Below, one piece after another: positions 39,673 to 48,398 of a stretch of 64,000 nt of DNA. This DNA is from Gemmatimonadota bacterium (GTDB taxonomy: Bacteria; Gemmatimonadota; Gemmatimonadetes; Gemmatimonadales; Gemmatimonadaceae): contig JACPFW010000037.1 of the NCBI GenBank assembly GCA_016182795.1, forward strand, positions 1 to 64,000, read 5' to 3'. The translations under genes and the position numbers were made by a program. The notes beneath the pieces are model-generated. The model searched no databases, had not been told where the DNA came from, and saw nothing but the letters and a program-made list of their open reading frames with translations. The stretch's first letter is position 1, and each line of letters starts with the position of its first letter.

Positions 39673-39682
39673 TGTCCGGACA
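39673..39682. promoter_or_regulatory. Palindrome upstream of the multihaem locus, possible operator
   Basis: TGTCCGGACA is a perfect 10-bp palindrome, followed two bases later by a related half-site GTCCGAC (39684-39690). It lies in the 167-base gap before the five-gene redox operon, about 100 bases from its first codon. No regulator can be named, and I see no convincing -35/-10 pair in the gap. Confidence 0.35.
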
Positions 39683-39782: not shown

Positions 39783-40781
39783 ATGACCTCCAATCGGACG
39801 CGGATGAACCCGCGAAACGTCGCCCGCAAAGCGTTGCAGGGATTTCCACGCCGGGTCGCGCACGCGCCGGCGAGGCCTCGCGTCGTTATCACCACGCCGC
39901 GCGCGGCGCGCGCTGATCGAGCACGGAGCGTCAGGCTTCTGACGCTGACGCTGCCGCTGGTCGGCATCAACATCTGGGGGGCCTCGTACTACCTCAGTTC
40001 GCTGGCCGCGCGTGCGCGCCATCCTCTGCATCCGCTACTTCGCCCGTCGGGAACGATCGGCCAGAGCGCTGGCATCGCCGCGTTCGCCATATTCGTCTTC
40101 CTCTGGCTCTACCCGGCGCGCAAGAAATTCAAGCGCCTTGCCTTTACCGGCTCCGTTGGCAAGTGGCTCGACGTGCATGTCGCGTCTGCGCTGATGCTGC
40201 CGTTGCTGCTCGCCGTCCACGCGGCGTGGCGCTCCGATGGCGTGATCGGACTCGGACTCGTCGCCATGCTCGTCGTCATCGCCAGTGGCGTCGTTGGTCG
40301 CTACCTGTATACGCGCATTCCGCGCGCCAAGTCCGGCGTGGAGTTGACGCGGGATGAAGTCGCCTCAACCCGCGCCGAGCTGCTGTGCCGCCTCTCCGAG
40401 ACGACGGGTATAGCGGCACCGACGCTGGAGTCGACGCTCACGGCGGATGCCGAACGCGAGTCGCGCGGCCTGTTGGCCTCCGTCGCAGCCATGCTGCGCA
40501 ACGATCTCACCCGCCACCGTCGGCGGCACGAGCTGCGGCAGAAGTGGACCGCGCTGTCGACGGGCGACGGGCACACGTTGGCCGGGCGCGCCCTCGACGA
40601 GGCAGTGGCATTGGCCGACCGGGAAATGGCGCTGGACCAGCAGGTACGAATGCTCGAGGCGACGCACCGCGTGTTCAAGTTCTGGCACGTTGCCCATCGG
40701 CCGTTTGCCATCACCGCCCTCGTCGCCGTGCTCATCCACGTCGCGGTAGTGGTTTCGCTCGGTGCCACCTGGTTCTGGTAA
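39783..40781 (+). CDS. Putative diheme b-type cytochrome membrane protein
   Basis: 332 residues. About five hydrophobic segments (50-72, 92-110, 131-148, 154-172 and 306-328) surround a charged, helical cytoplasmic or periplasmic stretch (185-295). Two helices carry His pairs 14 residues apart: His132/His146 and His305/His319. Such spacing is what is seen in ferric-reductase-like and b-type cytochromes that bind two haems by bis-His ligation. GRYLYTRIP follows the fourth helix. It is the first gene of the redox locus, five bases before the flavoprotein gene. The role as quinol-linked electron entry is inferred. The first 45 residues are Arg-rich, so a later start is possible. Confidence 0.65.
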   Translation: MTSNRTRMNPRNVARKALQGFPRRVAHAPARPRVVITTPRAARADRARSVRLLTLTLPLVGINIWGASYYLSSLAARARHPLHPLLRPSGTIGQSAGIAAFAIFVFLWLYPARKKFKRLAFTGSVGKWLDVHVASALMLPLLLAVHAAWRSDGVIGLGLVAMLVVIASGVVGRYLYTRIPRAKSGVELTRDEVASTRAELLCRLSETTGIAAPTLESTLTADAERESRGLLASVAAMLRNDLTRHRRRHELRQKWTALSTGDGHTLAGRALDEAVALADREMALDQQVRMLEATHRVFKFWHVAHRPFAITALVAVLIHVAVVVSLGATWFW

Positions 40782-40786
40782 GCGCC

Positions 40787-42211
40787 ATGCTCTGGACGAC
40801 GCTCGGGTTCTTCGTGCTGACGGCCGTGATGATTCGGCTGCACCTGCGTGACGCGGGCGCGACGCGCTCGAGCGCGCCGGCCGCGAAGCCCACGCAACCG
40901 TGTCCGCGCTGTCAGGCACCGGCCGCGATCGGCAGCGCTTTCTGCCCCGGGTGCGGCGTGCCGCTCCAGACGTTTGAAGTGGTGCAGGCTCGCGTCGCGA
41001 CCGGCCCGGCACCGGTCGGTGGCGTTCCCAAGGCCGCCGTGCGCGCCGACATGTGCGTGGGGTGCGGAACCTGCGTGGCCGCGTGTCCGGAGGCGGGCGC
41101 TATTGCCCTCGTCGGCAAGCTGGCAACGGTGAACGACGCCCTCTGCCGTGGCCACGGCGAATGCGTGCGAGCCTGCCCAGTGGGTGCGATCAGCGTCACC
41201 ACGGGTCAGGCCGTGAACCGCGTGCGCGTGCCGTTGGTCAATGCAAACTTCGAGACGAATGTCCCCGGGCTGTACATCGTCGGCGAACTGGGCGGGCGTG
41301 GGCTAATCAAGAATGCGATCAACGAGGGCAAGCTCGCCGTCGAGCATGTGGCCGCTGTTCTGAGTGGCGCCGAGCCGCCGGACAGCGCGGAGCCGTACGT
41401 CGATGTGGCAGTCGTCGGGTCGGGGCCAGCCGGACTGAGCGCCGGCCTCGAGGCCATGCGTCGCGGGCTTTCGTGCGTGGTCATTGAGCAGGGATCGCTC
41501 TCCGACACGGTGCGCAAATACCCGCGTCACAAGCTGCTCCTCGCCGAACCGGTCCAGATTCCGCTGTACGGCGACCTGTGGATCGCGGATGCATCCAAGG
41601 AGACGCTGCTGCAAGTGTGGGAAACGATTGTCGCGAACACGGGTCTCCCCGTCCGCACGGGCGAGCGCGTGGATAGCGTGGTGCGTGACGGCGCATTCCT
41701 GCGCGTGCAGAGCGCGATCGGCTCGCAGCTCGCGCGCAAGGTGGTGCTGGCCGTCGGACGGCGCGGCACGCCGCGGCGTCTGGGCGTGTCGGGTGAGGAA
41801 CTCGACAAGGTCTTCTACGACATAGTGGAGATGGAGGCCTTCGCCGGCCAGCGCGTGTTGGTGGTCGGCGGGGGCGACAGCGCCATCGAGTCGGTGCTTG
41901 GACTGGCGAACCAGCCAGGTACCACGGTGACGCTATCGTACCGCGGGGCCGCGTTCGACCGCGTCAAGCCGCGCAATCAGGAGAAACTCGCACGGGCCAT
42001 CGAGGCCGGGAAGGTGACGTCGCTGCTCGGGAGCACCGTACGCGAGATCCGCTCGGACGTGGCCCTGCTCGACCTCAACGGCGAGACGACCATCCTGCCC
42101 AACGATTTTGTGGTGATTCGCATCGGAGGGGAGGCGCCTTACGCGATGCTAGAGCGGCTTGGCGTTCGCATCGTCGAGAAGGAACTCAGCACAGGCGCCA
42201 AGGCGGGATAG
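40787..42211 (+). CDS. Membrane-anchored [4Fe-4S] flavoprotein oxidoreductase, TrxB-like fold
   Basis: 474 residues. Order: one helix (1-20), zinc ribbon (Cys39, 42, 53, 56), a two-cluster ferredoxin (Cys90-X2-93-X2-96-X3-100; Cys120, His123, Cys126, Cys130), then TNVPGLYIVGELGGRG (158-173), then the FAD motif GSGPAGLSAG (211-220), and an NAD(P) motif [11 protein letters not shown]. In thioredoxin-reductase-like proteins the NVPGLY-GD block is at the C-terminus; here it precedes the FAD motif and the chain ends at the point where that block would follow. That implies circular permutation. No redox CxxC of thioredoxin reductase is seen. ATG 40787 was chosen because it gives the membrane helix. 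It likely connects NAD(P)H and haem proteins. Confidence 0.8.
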   Translation: MLWTTLGFFVLTAVMIRLHLRDAGATRSSAPAAKPTQPCPRCQAPAAIGSAFCPGCGVPLQTFEVVQARVATGPAPVGGVPKAAVRADMCVGCGTCVAACPEAGAIALVGKLATVNDALCRGHGECVRACPVGAISVTTGQAVNRVRVPLVNANFETNVPGLYIVGELGGRGLIKNAINEGKLAVEHVAAVLSGAEPPDSAEPYVDVAVVGSGPAGLSAGLEAMRRGLSCVVIEQGSLSDTVRKYPRHKLLLAEPVQIPLYGDLWIADASKETLLQVWETIVANTGLPVRTGERVDSVVRDGAFLRVQSAIGSQLARKVVLAVGRRGTPRRLGVSGEELDKVFYDIVEMEAFAGQRVLVVGGGDSAIESVLGLANQPGTTVTLSYRGAAFDRVKPRNQEKLARAIEAGKVTSLLGSTVREIRSDVALLDLNGETTILPNDFVVIRIGGEAPYAMLERLGVRIVEKELSTGAKAG

Positions 42212-44245
42212 GTGCGACTCACGCGCCTCGCGCGCTTCGTGATCACCGCCGCCGGGATCGCGTCGCCCCTGGCGGCGCAGATATCGCCGGGGCCGCTGGC
42301 CAAGGCACACGCGTCGTTGGAAGGCGCCGCGAACTGCGTGCAGTGCCATGGGCTGCGGAAGGAACCGATGGCGCAACGCTGCCTGGCCTGCCACAAGGAG
42401 GTGGCGTGGCTCATCGACCGGGGTCGCGGACTGCATGCGAAATCGCGGACGGCGTCGACGCGCCCCTGTGCGGCGTGCCACCCCGATCACGCGGGCGAGG
42501 ACTTTGCCCTCATCGACTGGGGGCCGGGCGGGTCGGCGGGCTTTGACCATGCGCGCGCGGGCTGGGCGCTCGAGGGCAAGCACGCGCGCGCGAAATGCAC
42601 GGCCTGTCACGACGTGAAATTCCGAAAGTCGGCCGCGGCGGCGCTGTCGCCACGGCGCGGAACCGCCGGCTGGATGGGGTTGGAGACGAGCTGCATCAGC
42701 TGTCATGCCCGCGATGATGTGCACCGCGAAACTCTCGGCGCGTCGTGCGAGCGTTGCCATGACGCCGTCGACTGGACAAAGCCCGTGCGCTTTGACCATG
42801 ACAAGTCGAAATACCCTCTGACGGGGAAGCACGCGGACGTGGCGTGCGACCGCTGCCACAAGGCGGCGCGCCTTCGGCTTCGTGCCGAACCGGACGGCCG
42901 CATCATCGGGCGCTACAAACCGCTCCCCGCCGCCGAGTGCTCGGCGTGTCATGCGAATCCGCACCGCGACCGGGTGTCGGCAAAGTGCAGCACTTGCCAC
43001 ACCACGCGCGATTTCAAAGAAGTCAATCGCCGCGAGTTCAACCACGGGGCGACGCGCTATGCGCTGACCGGGCGTCACGCCGCCGTTGCCTGCGAGGGTT
43101 GCCACGGCGTCGGCCTGACGCATCGCACCCCGGCGTTTGCGCGCTGCGACAACTGCCACAAGGACGCGCACTATGGGCGCGCCACCCTCAAGAATCAGCC
43201 CGCGGATTGTGCCGCGTGCCATCAGGTTGAAGGCTTCGCGCCATCCACGTACACCGCCGAGCAGCATCGCGCTGCGCCATACGCGCTCGCCGGACGCCAT
43301 CAGACGGTCGCCTGCGTCAAGTGCCACGTCGCAGCCGACTCCGTGGTGCGCGTCGCGCCCCGACAGGTGCGTCGATGGGTGCAACTGCGTCCCGCGGCGA
43401 CAACGTGCGAGTCGTGCCATGAGAATCCACACCGCGGCGATCGTGCGCTGAAAGAACGTGATGCGCGTTGTGTGGCCTGCCACGACGAGCGCGGATGGGC
43501 ACCCAGTGCGTTCACCGCGGCGCGGCACGCGGCGCTGGGATGGCCTTTGGACGGATCGCATGCGCCGCTCTCATGCGCCCGATGTCACGTACGCCGGATG
43601 GCCCCCGCTACCCCGCCGGCCGCTGCGGGGCGCGTGACCTCGGCGCAGGTTGCGCTGCAGCTCGACGGAGGGTGCGGCGCGTGCCACCTCGACCCGCACG
43701 ACGGGCGATATTCGCCCGGCGTTGCCACGGCCCCGGCTCGTGGGTGCGTGGCCTGCCATGACGCCCGCCGCTTCGCCCCCGCCACGCTGGCGGTCGCCAG
43801 CCACACCGAGTTCGGTTTTGCGCTGGACGGTGCGCATCGCGCGGTACCGTGTCGAGACTGTCACCGTGAGTTGCGCGGCACGCCGTCGCCTCGAACGTTG
43901 CGCACGCTGAGCGACGCCCGCGTGGTGCGCCTCGCCTTTGCGGAGACGCGGCGCGGCACCTGCGCCTCATGCCACGCGGACATTCACGGCGGACAGTTCG
44001 CGGCTCGCCCGCACGCGGGTGGCTGTGACGGCTGCCACACAACGGCGCAGTGGGCCGGCGCCGCCCGATTTGTTCATGATCGCGATACGTCCTTTCCGCT
44101 GGCCGGCGCGCATTCGCGCGTTCCCTGTGCGGCGTGCCATCCGGCCGCTGCACAGTCCGGTGGAGGGACTCGCGTACAGTACCGGCCGCGGCCGACCGCG
44201 TGCGAAGGCTGCCACGCGGCAGCAGCGCTGAGGAACCGTTCATGA
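42212..44245 (+). CDS. Exported multihaem c-type cytochrome, 23 CxxCH motifs
   Basis: 677 residues from a GTG that directly abuts the previous stop. A Sec signal (RFVITAAGIASPLAAQ) leads to a chain with 23 CxxCH haem-attachment sites, from CVQCH near residue 42 to CEGCH near the end. Recurring strings such as KYPLTGKHADVACDRCH and FNHGATRYALTGRHAAVACE place extra His between haems, expected for bis-His ligation. Unlike the next gene, the spacing is irregular. It is related to the doubled-CXXCH cytochromes of anaerobic respiration and extracellular electron transfer. The location should be periplasm or outer membrane. Stop overlaps the next start (ATGA). Confidence 0.92.
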   Translation: MRLTRLARFVITAAGIASPLAAQISPGPLAKAHASLEGAANCVQCHGLRKEPMAQRCLACHKEVAWLIDRGRGLHAKSRTASTRPCAACHPDHAGEDFALIDWGPGGSAGFDHARAGWALEGKHARAKCTACHDVKFRKSAAAALSPRRGTAGWMGLETSCISCHARDDVHRETLGASCERCHDAVDWTKPVRFDHDKSKYPLTGKHADVACDRCHKAARLRLRAEPDGRIIGRYKPLPAAECSACHANPHRDRVSAKCSTCHTTRDFKEVNRREFNHGATRYALTGRHAAVACEGCHGVGLTHRTPAFARCDNCHKDAHYGRATLKNQPADCAACHQVEGFAPSTYTAEQHRAAPYALAGRHQTVACVKCHVAADSVVRVAPRQVRRWVQLRPAATTCESCHENPHRGDRALKERDARCVACHDERGWAPSAFTAARHAALGWPLDGSHAPLSCARCHVRRMAPATPPAAAGRVTSAQVALQLDGGCGACHLDPHDGRYSPGVATAPARGCVACHDARRFAPATLAVASHTEFGFALDGAHRAVPCRDCHRELRGTPSPRTLRTLSDARVVRLAFAETRRGTCASCHADIHGGQFAARPHAGGCDGCHTTAQWAGAARFVHDRDTSFPLAGAHSRVPCAACHPAAAQSGGGTRVQYRPRPTACEGCHAAAALRNRS

Positions 44246-46809
44246 CGTGGAGGACCGTCGGTGCGCTAGCCTCGCTCGTCGTCGCGTTCGCACTGCCCGC
44301 GCAGCAGCCCACGGGTGCCGCGAATCCGCACGGCCCGAACGTGGGCGCCTGCGCGCAGTGCCACAGCGCGAAGGGCTGGCGCCCCGCGCGCATCAGCCGC
44401 GCATTTGCGCACGCGCCATCGGTGTTTCCGTTGTCCGGCGCGCACGAGCGCACGGCGTGCACCGCCTGCCACGCGTCCCTCGAGTTCGGCAAGGCGCCCG
44501 TGGCCTGCGCCGAATGCCACCGCGACGTGCACAAGGCCGAGATGGGACGTGACTGTGCGCAGTGCCACACGACGCGCAGCTTCGTCGACGAAACCAATCT
44601 TCGCCGCACGCATGAACTCACGCGATTCCCCCTGCGCGGCGCACACGCCACGCTGGAGTGCGCGGCATGCCACCCGGCCGCGTCGCCAGGGCAGTCGCAG
44701 TATCGCCGGCGGCCAACCGCTTGCATTGGGTGCCATGCCAGTGCCTATCGCGCCGCCAAGGCGCCCGATCATCAGGCGGCGGGCTTCCCGCAGGACTGCA
44801 GTCAGTGCCATCGCGTCAGCACGTGGTCCGGCGGGACTTTCAACCATGCGGCGACCCGCTTTCCCCTGACGGACGCGCACGCGGCGGTGTCGTGCGACCG
44901 CTGCCATGCCGACGGCCGCTTCAAGGGGCGCCCCACCGACTGCGTCGCCTGCCACCAGACGGACTATACGTGGACCAAGACGCCGCCGCATGCGGTCTCC
45001 GGCTTCCCGACCACGTGCGCGCTCTGCCACTCGATGAAGTCGTGGACACGCGGCGTATTCAACCACGACGCCACGGCGTTCGCGCTCACCGGGGCACATC
45101 GTGCGGCGTCGTGCGCCCGCTGCCACGCCGACAACGTGTACCGCGGCAAGTCGACGGAATGTCGCAGTTGTCATCAGCCGCAGTACGCGGCGGCCGCCAA
45201 CCCGCCGCATGCGACGCTCGCGTTTCCGACCGCCTGCCTCTCCTGCCACACCACCACGGCGTGGACGGGCGGAGCCTTTGACCACTCGACCACCGCATTT
45301 GCCCTGACCGGCGCCCATCGCGCCGGGCCGTGCGCGTCGTGTCATGCCAATGGCCAGTGGCGCGGCATCGCCTCGACGTGCGCCAACTGTCACCAGGCGC
45401 AGTACGCCGCCGCCGTCAATCCGCCACATGCGAGTGCCGGCTATCCCACGACGTGCCAGCAGTGCCATTCCACGACGGCCTGGCAGGGGGCATCGTTCGA
45501 CCACAGCGCGACCGCGTTCGCCCTCACCGGCGCGCACCGCGCGGCGCAGTGCAATGACTGTCACGCCGACCGCGTCTACAAGGGCAAGAGCACCGCATGC
45601 GTGTCGTGCCACCAGGCGGCCTACGCGGCGACCACGAAACCGGCGCACGCGGCCAGCGGCATCGGTACGAACTGCACGCAGTGCCACGGCACCGCCGGGT
45701 GGGCGGGCTCGGCGTTCGACCACTCTGTCACGTCGTTTGCGCTCACCGGCGCCCATCGCGCGGTGGCGTGCGCAGGGTGCCACGGCGATGGCGTGTACAA
45801 GGGAAAGCCGTCGCTGTGCGAGAGTTGCCATCGCGCCCGGTACGACGCCACCAGCACGCCGGCGCACGCAGCGGCCGGCTTTCCGACGTCGTGCCAGTCG
45901 TGCCACACGACCACCGCGTGGGTGCCGTCGCCGTTTGACCACTCGGCCACGCAGTTCCCCCTGACCGGCGCGCACCGGGCGTCCCCCTGCGCACGCTGTC
46001 ACGGCGACAATGTGTACAAGGGAAAGAACACGGCGTGCGTGTCCTGCCACCAGCCGCAGTACGTCGCCTCGGTGCGGCCGCCGCATGCCACGCTCGCGTT
46101 CCCGACGGTGTGCGCCACGTGTCATACGACCACCGCCTGGACCGGCGCGACCTTCGATCACGCGGTGACGCGCTTTGCCCTGACCGGTGCGCACCGCGCC
46201 GTCAGCTGTGCCGGCTGCCACGGCGATGGCATCTATCGCGGCAAGCCGCTGACCTGCGCGGGCTGCCATCAGGCGCGCTTCGACGCGACGACGACCCCCA
46301 ATCACCGGTCGGCGGCCTTCCCGACGACGTGCGAGGTCTGTCACAGCACCACCGCGTGGATTCCCGGAACGTTCAACCACGCGAACACGCTCTTCCCGCT
46401 GACCGGCGCGCACACCACGCAGTCCTGCGCCTCGTGCCATGGCGACGGCGTGTATCGCGGCAAGTCGACGCTCTGCGTGAGCTGCCATCAGGCGCGATAC
46501 GACGCGACGACCAATCCCAACCATCGCGCGGCCATGTTCCCGACGGCGTGCGCGTCGTGCCACACGACGCTCCGGTGGACGGGAGCCACCTTCAACCACG
46601 ACGGCTCGTACTTCCCCATATACAGCGGCAAGCACAAGGGGCGGTGGAGCACGTGCGCCGATTGCCACACTGTCTCCACCAACTTCTCGGTGTTCTCCTG
46701 CTTTTCGTGCCACCGCCAAACGGATATGGACAAAGAGCACAAGGGACGCACCGGCTATCGCTACGACAGCGCGTTGTGCTATCAGTGCCATCCGCGAGGG
46801 ACGTCGTGA
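44242..46809 (+). CDS. Exported multihaem c-type cytochrome, 34 CxxCH motifs in a tandem tri-haem array
   Basis: 855 residues. Signal peptide TVGALASLVVAFALPAQQ. Of 34 CxxCH sites, 24 lie in eight consecutive 73-residue units (residues 186-769). Each unit has haem motifs at unit positions 1-5, 33-37 and 49-53 and single His at 17 (F-N/D-H), mostly 28 (GAH) and 65 (P-H). These three His could be the distal ligands of three bis-His haems. Six motifs precede and four follow the array. I used ATG 44242, overlapping the upstream stop. The regular array suggests an elongated haem wire; that is inference. No axial Met pattern or catalytic haem site is apparent. Confidence 0.93.
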   Translation: MTWRTVGALASLVVAFALPAQQPTGAANPHGPNVGACAQCHSAKGWRPARISRAFAHAPSVFPLSGAHERTACTACHASLEFGKAPVACAECHRDVHKAEMGRDCAQCHTTRSFVDETNLRRTHELTRFPLRGAHATLECAACHPAASPGQSQYRRRPTACIGCHASAYRAAKAPDHQAAGFPQDCSQCHRVSTWSGGTFNHAATRFPLTDAHAAVSCDRCHADGRFKGRPTDCVACHQTDYTWTKTPPHAVSGFPTTCALCHSMKSWTRGVFNHDATAFALTGAHRAASCARCHADNVYRGKSTECRSCHQPQYAAAANPPHATLAFPTACLSCHTTTAWTGGAFDHSTTAFALTGAHRAGPCASCHANGQWRGIASTCANCHQAQYAAAVNPPHASAGYPTTCQQCHSTTAWQGASFDHSATAFALTGAHRAAQCNDCHADRVYKGKSTACVSCHQAAYAATTKPAHAASGIGTNCTQCHGTAGWAGSAFDHSVTSFALTGAHRAVACAGCHGDGVYKGKPSLCESCHRARYDATSTPAHAAAGFPTSCQSCHTTTAWVPSPFDHSATQFPLTGAHRASPCARCHGDNVYKGKNTACVSCHQPQYVASVRPPHATLAFPTVCATCHTTTAWTGATFDHAVTRFALTGAHRAVSCAGCHGDGIYRGKPLTCAGCHQARFDATTTPNHRSAAFPTTCEVCHSTTAWIPGTFNHANTLFPLTGAHTTQSCASCHGDGVYRGKSTLCVSCHQARYDATTNPNHRAAMFPTACASCHTTLRWTGATFNHDGSYFPIYSGKHKGRWSTCADCHTVSTNFSVFSCFSCHRQTDMDKEHKGRTGYRYDSALCYQCHPRGTS
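44797..46548 (+). repeat. Eight tandem 219-bp units encoding tri-haem modules
   Basis: Unit starts at 44797, 45016, 45235, 45454, 45673, 45892, 46111 and 46330 each begin with a CxxCH codon set, and a partial ninth starts at 46549. The period is constant at 73 codons, with no insertions or deletions. The protein consensus is CxxCHxxxxW, F(D/N)H, FxLTGAHRA, CxxCH, Y(K/R)GK, CxxCH, PxH, FPT. Confidence 0.95.
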
Positions 46810-48398
46810 TGCGTCTCCCGTTGCCGAACCCATACGCGCGCGCAGTCCTGACCCTGATCTCCGCCATCGCGGCGCTGACGGGACCAGCCAGGGCACAGGA
46901 GACCGACACGTCCGCGTGGACCCGCATCAGTTACATCAGCGGCGCGACCATCTACCTGGAGGTCGGCCGACAACAGGGCCTCACCGAGGGGAGCACGCTC
47001 GACGTCGTCCGCGCCGGGGCAACAGTGGCGCGCGTGCGCGTCACCGCGCTGGCTTCGACGAGGGCGGCCTGTGAACTGCTTCCACCCGTCGTCGACCTGA
47101 TCGTGGGAGATTCGGTGCGCTACGTCGCACGCGTGATCCCCGCCGCTGCCACAGCGCCAAGCGCGTCGGCAAGCGCGCGCCCGACACGTCGCAGCGGATT
47201 GCGGGGCCGCATTGGAGTGCGCTACCTCGTGATCGCGCCGGAGGGCGGGGTGGGAGGGCTCACGCAGCCTGCCTACGATCTCCGGCTCGAGGGCTCCCCG
47301 ATGGTCGGCACGCCGCTTGGCGTCACCGTCGATGCCCGCGCGCAGCGCACTCGATACACCACCACGGGGGCTGCGGCGCCACGCCCGGCGCTCAACTCCA
47401 CGCGCGTCTACCAAGCGGCGCTCTCGTGGAGCCACGCCGCAAGCGGCATCCGTGTCGCCGCCGGGCGACAGCTGGCGGGGGCGCTCACATCCGTCGGACT
47501 GTTCGATGGACTTTCCGTCGATCTCGGTCGGCGACAGTGGGCGACGGGACTCTTCGTCGGCAGTCAGCCGGACGCCGTCGACTTCGGCCTTTCGAGCCAG
47601 ATTCGCGAATACGGCGCCTACGGCGAATGGCATACCGCACCCGGCGTGCGCACCATGGCTTCCGTGACGATGGGCGGTGTTGGCTCGTACGTCGGCACGA
47701 CCATTGACCGGGAATATGGATTCACGCGCGTCACGCTGACCTCGCCGCTCGTGTCGCTGTATGCGACGCAAGAACTCGACGTGAATCGCGGCTGGCGACG
47801 CGCCGCCGAGCGCGTGCCGATCACGGCAACCGCCTCGTTCGCCAGCGTGCAGGTGACGCCGACGCCGCGCTTCATCCTCTCTGGAGGCATTGACCATCGA
47901 CGCAACGCGCGCTTGTATCGCGACTACGTCGATCCAGAACAGTCGTTCGACGACGCCTTCCGTGAGGGATCGTGGGCGGGGCTCACATTCGTTGCGCCGC
48001 GTTACGCGCGCCTGAGCGTCGACCGACGCGACAGTCGCGGAGGCGGCGCCGGCAATGCCAGCTCGAACACCGTCATGGCCAGTGCCAGCGGCCTCACGCG
48101 CTGGCGCGTCGGCCTGCGCACGCGCGTCACCGCCTTTGACGGTGCGCTTGCGTCGGGACAGCTCGCGTCCGGTGCCGTGGAGATCGATCCATGGGGCGTC
48201 GTTCGCATCGAAGGCAACGGCGGCGTGCGCACTACACGCGCGACGGGATCTGTCGGCGCGGCGAATGTGTCGTGGTGGGGGGTAGATGCTGACATCACTA
48301 TCAGGCGTTCCCTGTATTTGATGCTCTCCACCTACCGTGAACGCGAGGCGGGTGCGTCGTCCATGCAGACGTACGCCGCACTCAGTTGGCGTTTCTAG
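46809..48398 (+). CDS. Probable outer-membrane beta-barrel protein of the multihaem locus
   Basis: 529 residues, starting within the previous stop (TGATG). A signal peptide (VLTLISAIAALTGPARAQ) precedes a small domain (about 35-110) with SGATIYLEVGRQQGLTEGS and a glycine-anchored beta pattern, then an Ala/Ser linker. From about residue 130 on, alternating strands with Tyr, Trp and Arg girdles continue to the terminal Phe (ALSWRF), as in outer-membrane proteins. The strand count cannot be fixed by eye. Position last in an operon of two multihaem cytochromes suggests a porin that houses or anchors them, as MtrB does for MtrA. That role is inferred. Confidence 0.72.
   Translation: MRLPLPNPYARAVLTLISAIAALTGPARAQETDTSAWTRISYISGATIYLEVGRQQGLTEGSTLDVVRAGATVARVRVTALASTRAACELLPPVVDLIVGDSVRYVARVIPAAATAPSASASARPTRRSGLRGRIGVRYLVIAPEGGVGGLTQPAYDLRLEGSPMVGTPLGVTVDARAQRTRYTTTGAAAPRPALNSTRVYQAALSWSHAASGIRVAAGRQLAGALTSVGLFDGLSVDLGRRQWATGLFVGSQPDAVDFGLSSQIREYGAYGEWHTAPGVRTMASVTMGGVGSYVGTTIDREYGFTRVTLTSPLVSLYATQELDVNRGWRRAAERVPITATASFASVQVTPTPRFILSGGIDHRRNARLYRDYVDPEQSFDDAFREGSWAGLTFVAPRYARLSVDRRDSRGGGAGNASSNTVMASASGLTRWRVGLRTRVTAFDGALASGQLASGAVEIDPWGVVRIEGNGGVRTTRATGSVGAANVSWWGVDADITIRRSLYLMLSTYREREAGASSMQTYAALSWRF

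Follow-up and report, generated by a model that had tools for sequence, protein, structure and literature searches.

Electron transfer at the outer membrane by a barrel and multihaem cytochromes (MHC) is known from the MtrCAB, MtoAB and PioAB systems, and the Geobacter Pcc (OmbB-OmaB-OmcB) and Ext clusters also join a porin to periplasmic and outer cytochromes. To our knowledge, the Geobacter clusters contain no pair of an inner-membrane protein (IMP) and a flavoprotein. PCC3, described from Alpha-, Beta- and Gammaproteobacteria, consists of a porin, an extracellular MHC, a periplasmic MHC and an IMP (He et al. 2017, PMC5566968), with examples in Sideroxydans lithotrophicus (Slit_0867-0870 and Slit_1446-1449). 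The median haem number is 34 for the extracellular and 21 for the periplasmic cytochrome, and the IMP of ~300 aa features five transmembrane (TM) helices, an SGXXG motif on TM4 and WX3HX13H motifs on TM3 and TM5 (PMC5566968). Gallionellaceae PCC3 carry 10–35 extracellular and 21–27 periplasmic haems (PMC10734462). Activity with quinones was proposed for the IMP, in an inward model drawn from iron oxidisers (PMC5566968), and PCC3 has been called functionally untested (PMC12442390).

Five consecutive genes, A to E, at positions 39783–48398 of the window (the whole stretch of 64,000 nucleotides analysed) are best read as a PCC3 variant, matched through published PCC3 descriptions and motifs. Gene A corresponds to the IMP in size, in its five TM helices, in SGXXG and in two WX3HX13H motifs. 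The product of gene C, with 23 haems (20 or 23 in relatives), agrees in haem count with the periplasmic MHC, and that of gene D, with 34 haems and three-haem repeats, agrees with the extracellular MHC, both locations being predicted. Gene E adjoins D and, with a Sec-type N-terminus and a 22-strand model, takes the place of the porin in the cluster. However, published PCC3 descriptions list four genes, none of them for a flavoprotein, whereas here a fifth gene, B, lies in the block; PCC3 hosts are Proteobacteria, while the hosts here belong to Gemmatimonadota, FCB phyla and Acidobacteriota; many PCC3 porins are predicted to have more strands (up to 42) than the 22 of the E model; and D differs from the PCC3 description in being built as 4+3n haem units. 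The original prediction had proposed a new type of conduit. The trans-envelope redox locus with a barrel was retained, but the A-C-D-E core corresponds to the PCC3 description and the novelty of the type was not upheld. Searches of the open-access literature found no mention of a flavoprotein in PCC3, nor of PCC3 in Bacteroidota or Gemmatimonadota. What these searches did not find described is a built-in NAD(P)H-type flavoprotein, a wide spread outside Proteobacteria and the plan of a fixed C and a D variable by units.

MtrCAB, MtoAB and PioAB use 10-haem cytochromes, compared with 23 and 34 haems here, and in the Geobacter Pcc and Ext systems periplasmic cytochromes have 5–14 haems and outer ones 1–15. 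No MtrB/PioB-family barrel (PF11854) was found in the locus, the host genome matches lying on contigs C8 and C12, which agrees with the earlier statement that E has no recognisable MtrB features. The scores of C and D against the DmsE family (decahaem MtrA) are 45 and 50 bits, under the cut-off of 192 bits. Membership of MtrCAB was rejected on the absence of a PF11854 match for E and on these DmsE scores. On contigs C8 (66006–69232) and C12 (149508–156500), genes with 10 CxxCH motifs stand beside MtrB/PioB-family barrels (loci L197 and L198), and one barrel copy on C12 contains internal stops.

Gene content and predicted products

The five open reading frames were found where they had been predicted, all in the forward direction, and the junctions were likewise as described: a 5-base gap between A and B, direct abutment of B and C, a 4-base overlap of C and D and a 1-base overlap of D and E. 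The frames of 608 aa for B and 787 aa for E in the ORF list are over-extended, with likely starts at 40787 and 46809. Inspection and hydropathy indicate Sec-type N-termini on C, D and E. Upstream of A, a perfect palindrome, TGTCCGGACA, is located at 39673–39682. Its surroundings are unique in the genome and absent from relatives, and it was rejected as a conserved regulatory site; two relatives have TGTGA-N6-TCAC sites upstream of A in its place.

Gene A (39783–40781, + strand, ATG start) encodes a 332 aa inner-membrane protein of the PCC3 IMP type, assigned by its motifs and a weak match to Pfam cytochrome b561. AlphaFold2 (AF2) model helices and hydropathy give five predicted TM helices, arranged as published for PCC3. 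The diheme-b ligand pattern comprises two WX3HX13H motifs, W128-H132-H146 and W301-H305-H319, and the SGXXG motif is S168GVVG172. SGXXG is present in 79/79 relatives of A and both WX3HX13H motifs in 74 of them, while none of 20,000 shuffled A sequences contained two WX3HX13H. Histidines 132, 146, 302, 305 and 319 are invariant among 14 Gemmatimonadota and 17 multi-phylum sequences. The spacing 132–146 and 305–319 is the HX13H pattern of two putative stacked b haems, and positive charge suggests that the loops TM2-3 and TM4-5 are cytosolic. The AF2 model is weak (pTM 0.56), which was counted against the conduit reading, and a fold search with it returned no meaningful structural relative.

Gene B (40787–42211, + strand, ATG start) encodes an anchored Fe-S flavoprotein of 474 aa, recognised by motifs and family matches. 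It comprises an N-terminal TM anchor, a zinc ribbon, two Fe-S motifs (C90/C93/C96/C100 and C120/H123/C126/C130) and FAD and NAD(P) Rossmann domains, the motifs of which are intact and kept in two deep clades. The second Fe-S motif (window positions 41144–41179) has the invariant form CxGHGxCxxxCP, with H123 replacing Cys, and in Bacteroidota B proteins Ser or Thr substitutes for one Cys of the first motif. Such substitutions may mean 3Fe-4S or His-ligated clusters. The catalytic domain is closest to YpdA (bacillithiol) and thioredoxin-reductase-like proteins; B resembles YpdA (PDB 7a7b) in the FAD and NAD(P) domains, whereas the anchor, the zinc ribbon and the two Fe-S motifs are extra in B. 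With 159 bits against the YpdA cut-off of 339.9 and 59 bits against the thioredoxin reductase cut-off of 343, B was rejected as a member of either family. Together, A and B recall NOX/FRE enzymes, in which a flavin NAD(P)H module feeds two b haems on HX13H pairs of TM3 and TM5 and electrons leave the cytosol; the likeness of the IMP to NADPH oxidase and ferric reductase was noted by He et al. (PMC5566968). Here, however, B is of the thioredoxin reductase type with Fe-S clusters predicted on a separate chain, and the electrons would pass to multihaem c cytochromes.

Gene C (42212–44245, + strand, GTG start) encodes a 23-haem cytochrome, predicted to be exported and periplasmic, and gene D (44242–46809, + strand, ATG start) a 34-haem cytochrome, predicted to be exported and to lie through or outside the outer membrane. 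Both are identified by CxxCH motifs, the total of 57 being that originally counted, and by Pfam, where they fall in cytochrome c7/c3 families far over the cut-off. No CX3-4CH motifs were found in C or D, and neither has a Cys outside CxxCH. Beyond these motifs, C has 25 further His and D exactly 34, so every haem could have a second His ligand (bis-His). The regular 32-16-25 spacing in D (a 73-residue, three-haem unit), the supply of His and the lack of spare Cys argue that the haem motifs are not due to chance. A match of D to an MtrC/MtrF domain (Pfam PF22113) was put down to haem-motif repeats and not to homology, and a PDB sequence search with C and D gave no match.

The D protein is divided into a four-haem N-terminal cap (44350–44568, + strand) with a haem spacing of 36-16-16, kept across phyla, and ten three-haem units (44659–46791, + strand). 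The first unit has a spacing of 35-21-25, the next eight exactly 32-16-25 and the last 35-15-26. The D haem number follows 4+3n in 44 of 47 complete fingerprint-typed copies, which range from 13 to 73 haems; the exceptions are two split ORFs and one copy apparently minus one motif. C has 20 or 23 haems in 58 of 63 complete copies. The loci are related, and therefore 4+3n and synteny are reported as counts with no probability attached. Known haem wires extend by ~0.8 nm per haem, which by arithmetic would give spans of 16–20 nm for C and 27–29 nm for the D encoded here. The near-fixed C would fit a periplasm-spanning rod, as already proposed for the PCC3 periplasmic cytochrome, and the variable D would fit an outer part without a set distance. 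A distant form of the locus in the third family of the order (L054, L055 and L056) has two-haem D units with a spacing of 33–43 (read in L055), as if one haem had been lost per unit. Gain and loss of CxxCH units next to an OmbB-like porin has been seen in Burkholderiales (PMC7399161), and giant Saprospiraceae cytochromes have been noted as undescribed (PMC11495043).

Gene E (46809–48398, + strand, ATG start) encodes a predicted outer-membrane beta barrel of 529 aa, recognised by the Sec-type N-terminus and the AlphaFold2 model. The model (mean pLDDT 75) has a small N-terminal beta domain (residues about 35–106) followed by 22 strands (132–528), which by standard barrel geometry corresponds to a backbone diameter of about 40 Å; Pcc porins have been predicted to have 18–22 strands (PMC4245776). 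E is homologous across phyla and has no match to any Pfam or NCBIfam family. The fold search returned many unrelated barrels with Z of 14–16, which says only that E is a barrel, and MtrB was not among the matches listed, to which no weight was given.

Conservation, spread and loss of the block

As the original prediction had asked for in support of a conduit, the five genes recur together: where 8.2 kb or more is available downstream of A, 37 of 41 named loci contain all five, and the barrel gene is kept in unrelated genomes. The block occurs in Gemmatimonadota, Eisenbacteria, Acidobacteriota, KSB1, Ignavibacteriota and Bacteroidota. Among the other four loci, three have no recognised E in the available stretch, one of these lacking the second large MHC too. 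The fourth, L114 (Calditrichota), has an A homologue with B, D and E not recognised nearby. The two genome collections overlap, several loci being the same genome. A set of 99 related genomes, the host's own among them, contains 15 with a match to A and 15 with a match to E; the same ten non-self genomes are strong for A and have a substantial E, the genes being adjacent where contigs allow. These loci have the order A-B-C-D-E, with contig-end breaks within the repetitive cytochromes, or rearranged forms of it: some have B divergent and D-E convergent, and in the third family of the order (L054-L056) the order is E-A-C-D with B convergent.

A profile search of named genomes with A found 448 relatives, the best 80 of which belong to Gemmatimonadota, Eisenbacteria, Acidobacteria, KSB1, Calditrichota, Ignavibacteria and Bacteroidota. 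The A tree has two deep groups, Gemmatimonadota/Eisenbacteria/Acidobacteria versus Bacteroidota and kin. Full-length A is present in about 33 of 345 genomes drawn evenly from the phylum of a Saprospiraceae member. Of the 68 loci with 2 kb of downstream sequence, 65 have B accompanying A, in both deep clades. Clustering of flanking ORFs found only A–E to recur across many loci; a GW-domain lipoprotein gene and a ccsA-like gene lie beside the block in 5–6 loci. The cultured spring-water isolate Emticicia oligotrophica DSM 17448 carries ccsA-A-B-C-D-E, with 23 haems in C and 40 in D, on the 100-kb plasmid pEMTOL02 (L139, EMTOL_RS21085-21110). There, the block faces a divergent operon of sigma factor, Rieske, YceI and DUF5777 genes.

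No conduit was found on viral contigs, only weak partial matches to A, and plasmid searches for proteobacterial PCC3 returned only shorter, porin-less relatives. In plasmids of Acetobacter, Methylophaga and Alteromonas (L140, L195 and L196), a FAD/NAD/2Fe-2S oxidoreductase is followed by a distant A-like protein and a 7-haem cytochrome; the Alteromonas module adjoins a hydrogenase cluster. These three-gene modules have no porin annotated and their oxidoreductase is unrelated to B. Hence, membrane proteins of the A kind appear to pair repeatedly with NAD(P)H-type flavo-iron-sulfur enzymes.

The host assembly (3.13 Mb, 50 contigs, 93% complete; nearest named relatives Gemmatimonadota) contains genes for c-type cytochrome assembly and gives two strong matches to haem-copper oxidases. 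The locus is flanked by a UPF0182 gene and sucC. The UPF0182 gene is present in 11/11 genomes of the genus, with A adjoining it in four and sucC directly after it in seven. In two of these seven losers, G002 (L057) and G009 (L182), a scar of the E C-terminus precedes sucC, comprising in G002 about 43 in-frame residues within a 278-base gap. The scars and the patchy presence indicate that ancestors of these lineages, at least, had the locus and that it was then deleted. The locus is thus accessory and has been lost repeatedly in the genus.

Candidate electron route and competing explanations

The five genes very probably encode a lead by which electrons from intracellular enzymes cross both membranes and leave the cell. 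The reading that we favour, and hold to be probable, is a PCC3-kind conduit with a built-in cytosolic input, running from NAD(P)H through B, A, C and D/E outwards. If the products assemble into a complex with loaded haems at the predicted locations, B would sit on the inner membrane facing the cytosol and pass NAD(P)H electrons over FAD and two Fe-S clusters to A. In A, two stacked b haems would take electrons across the inner membrane, with H132/H305 on the cytosolic and H146/H319 on the periplasmic side. C would bridge the periplasm as a 23-haem rod of roughly fixed length, and D would enter or pass the 22-strand barrel E and extend outside as a wire, longer or shorter according to its count of three-haem units. 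For NAD(P)H input, the best indirect evidence is the presence of B beside A in two deep clades, together with the plasmid pairing of A-like proteins and flavo-iron-sulfur enzymes. B is divergent or downstream in some loci, which was counted against this reading, and proteobacterial PCC3 are described without a flavoprotein, so B is not essential to a PCC3-like conduit. More specifically, and tentatively, we propose a transmembrane dehydrogenase split between B and A, resembling NADPH oxidase and permanently wired to the conduit, by which organisms of at least six phyla would oxidise cytosolic NAD(P)H directly with acceptors outside the cell, without passing through the quinone pool.

Only energetic considerations favour outward flow. 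Reduction of NAD(P)+ across an energised membrane would be uphill in both redox and charge, as general bioenergetics holds, and this weighs on the reverse reading, in which D/E would receive electrons from Fe(II), Mn(II), reduced humics or other cells and pass them by C and A to the quinone pool, with B using some of them to reduce NAD(P)+. That reading can draw on the iron-oxidiser origin of the inward PCC3 model (PMC5566968) and on the possible reversibility of Mto/Mtr-class conduits; however, expression of PCC3 genes drops on Fe(II) in S. lithotrophicus ES-1 (PMC8788666), and the MtrAB-type loci elsewhere in the host could serve uptake, and we consider it unlikely. The quinone-active IMP of the PCC3 proposal (PMC5566968) would also allow A to exchange electrons with quinones, B being an accessory, such as a thiol or redox-balance enzyme that helps to mature cytochrome cysteines. 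The resemblance of the B catalytic domain to bacillithiol/thioredoxin reductase-like proteins and the ccsA-like genes near some loci point this way, but outside its YpdA-like region B also carries a TM anchor and two Fe-S motifs, it reaches 159 bits against a cut-off of 340, and distant A-like proteins are paired with unrelated flavo-Fe-S oxidoreductases; this explanation appears distinctly unlikely. A main role of D in storing charge or as a cell–cell wire, the set not being a respiratory route, seems very improbable. A capacitor role has been suggested for giant Bacteroidota cytochromes and PCC3, the range of 13 to 73 haems among complete fingerprint-typed D copies is in keeping with it, and so are the accessory nature and repeated loss of the locus; on the other side, the constant input module and the outer-membrane barrel suggest through-flow and not storage alone.

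C keeps its length whereas D grows in three-haem steps, which gives a clear, checkable prediction: C would span the periplasm and D would reach outward. The cultured Emticicia host, with its block on a plasmid, makes the function directly testable. Some of the giant "undescribed" Bacteroidota cytochromes (PMC11495043) may be explained by the block, which occurs in phyla where extracellular electron transfer has hardly been studied. For PCC3, proposed in 2017, the five-gene block with its electron-input enzyme gives a testable donor side.
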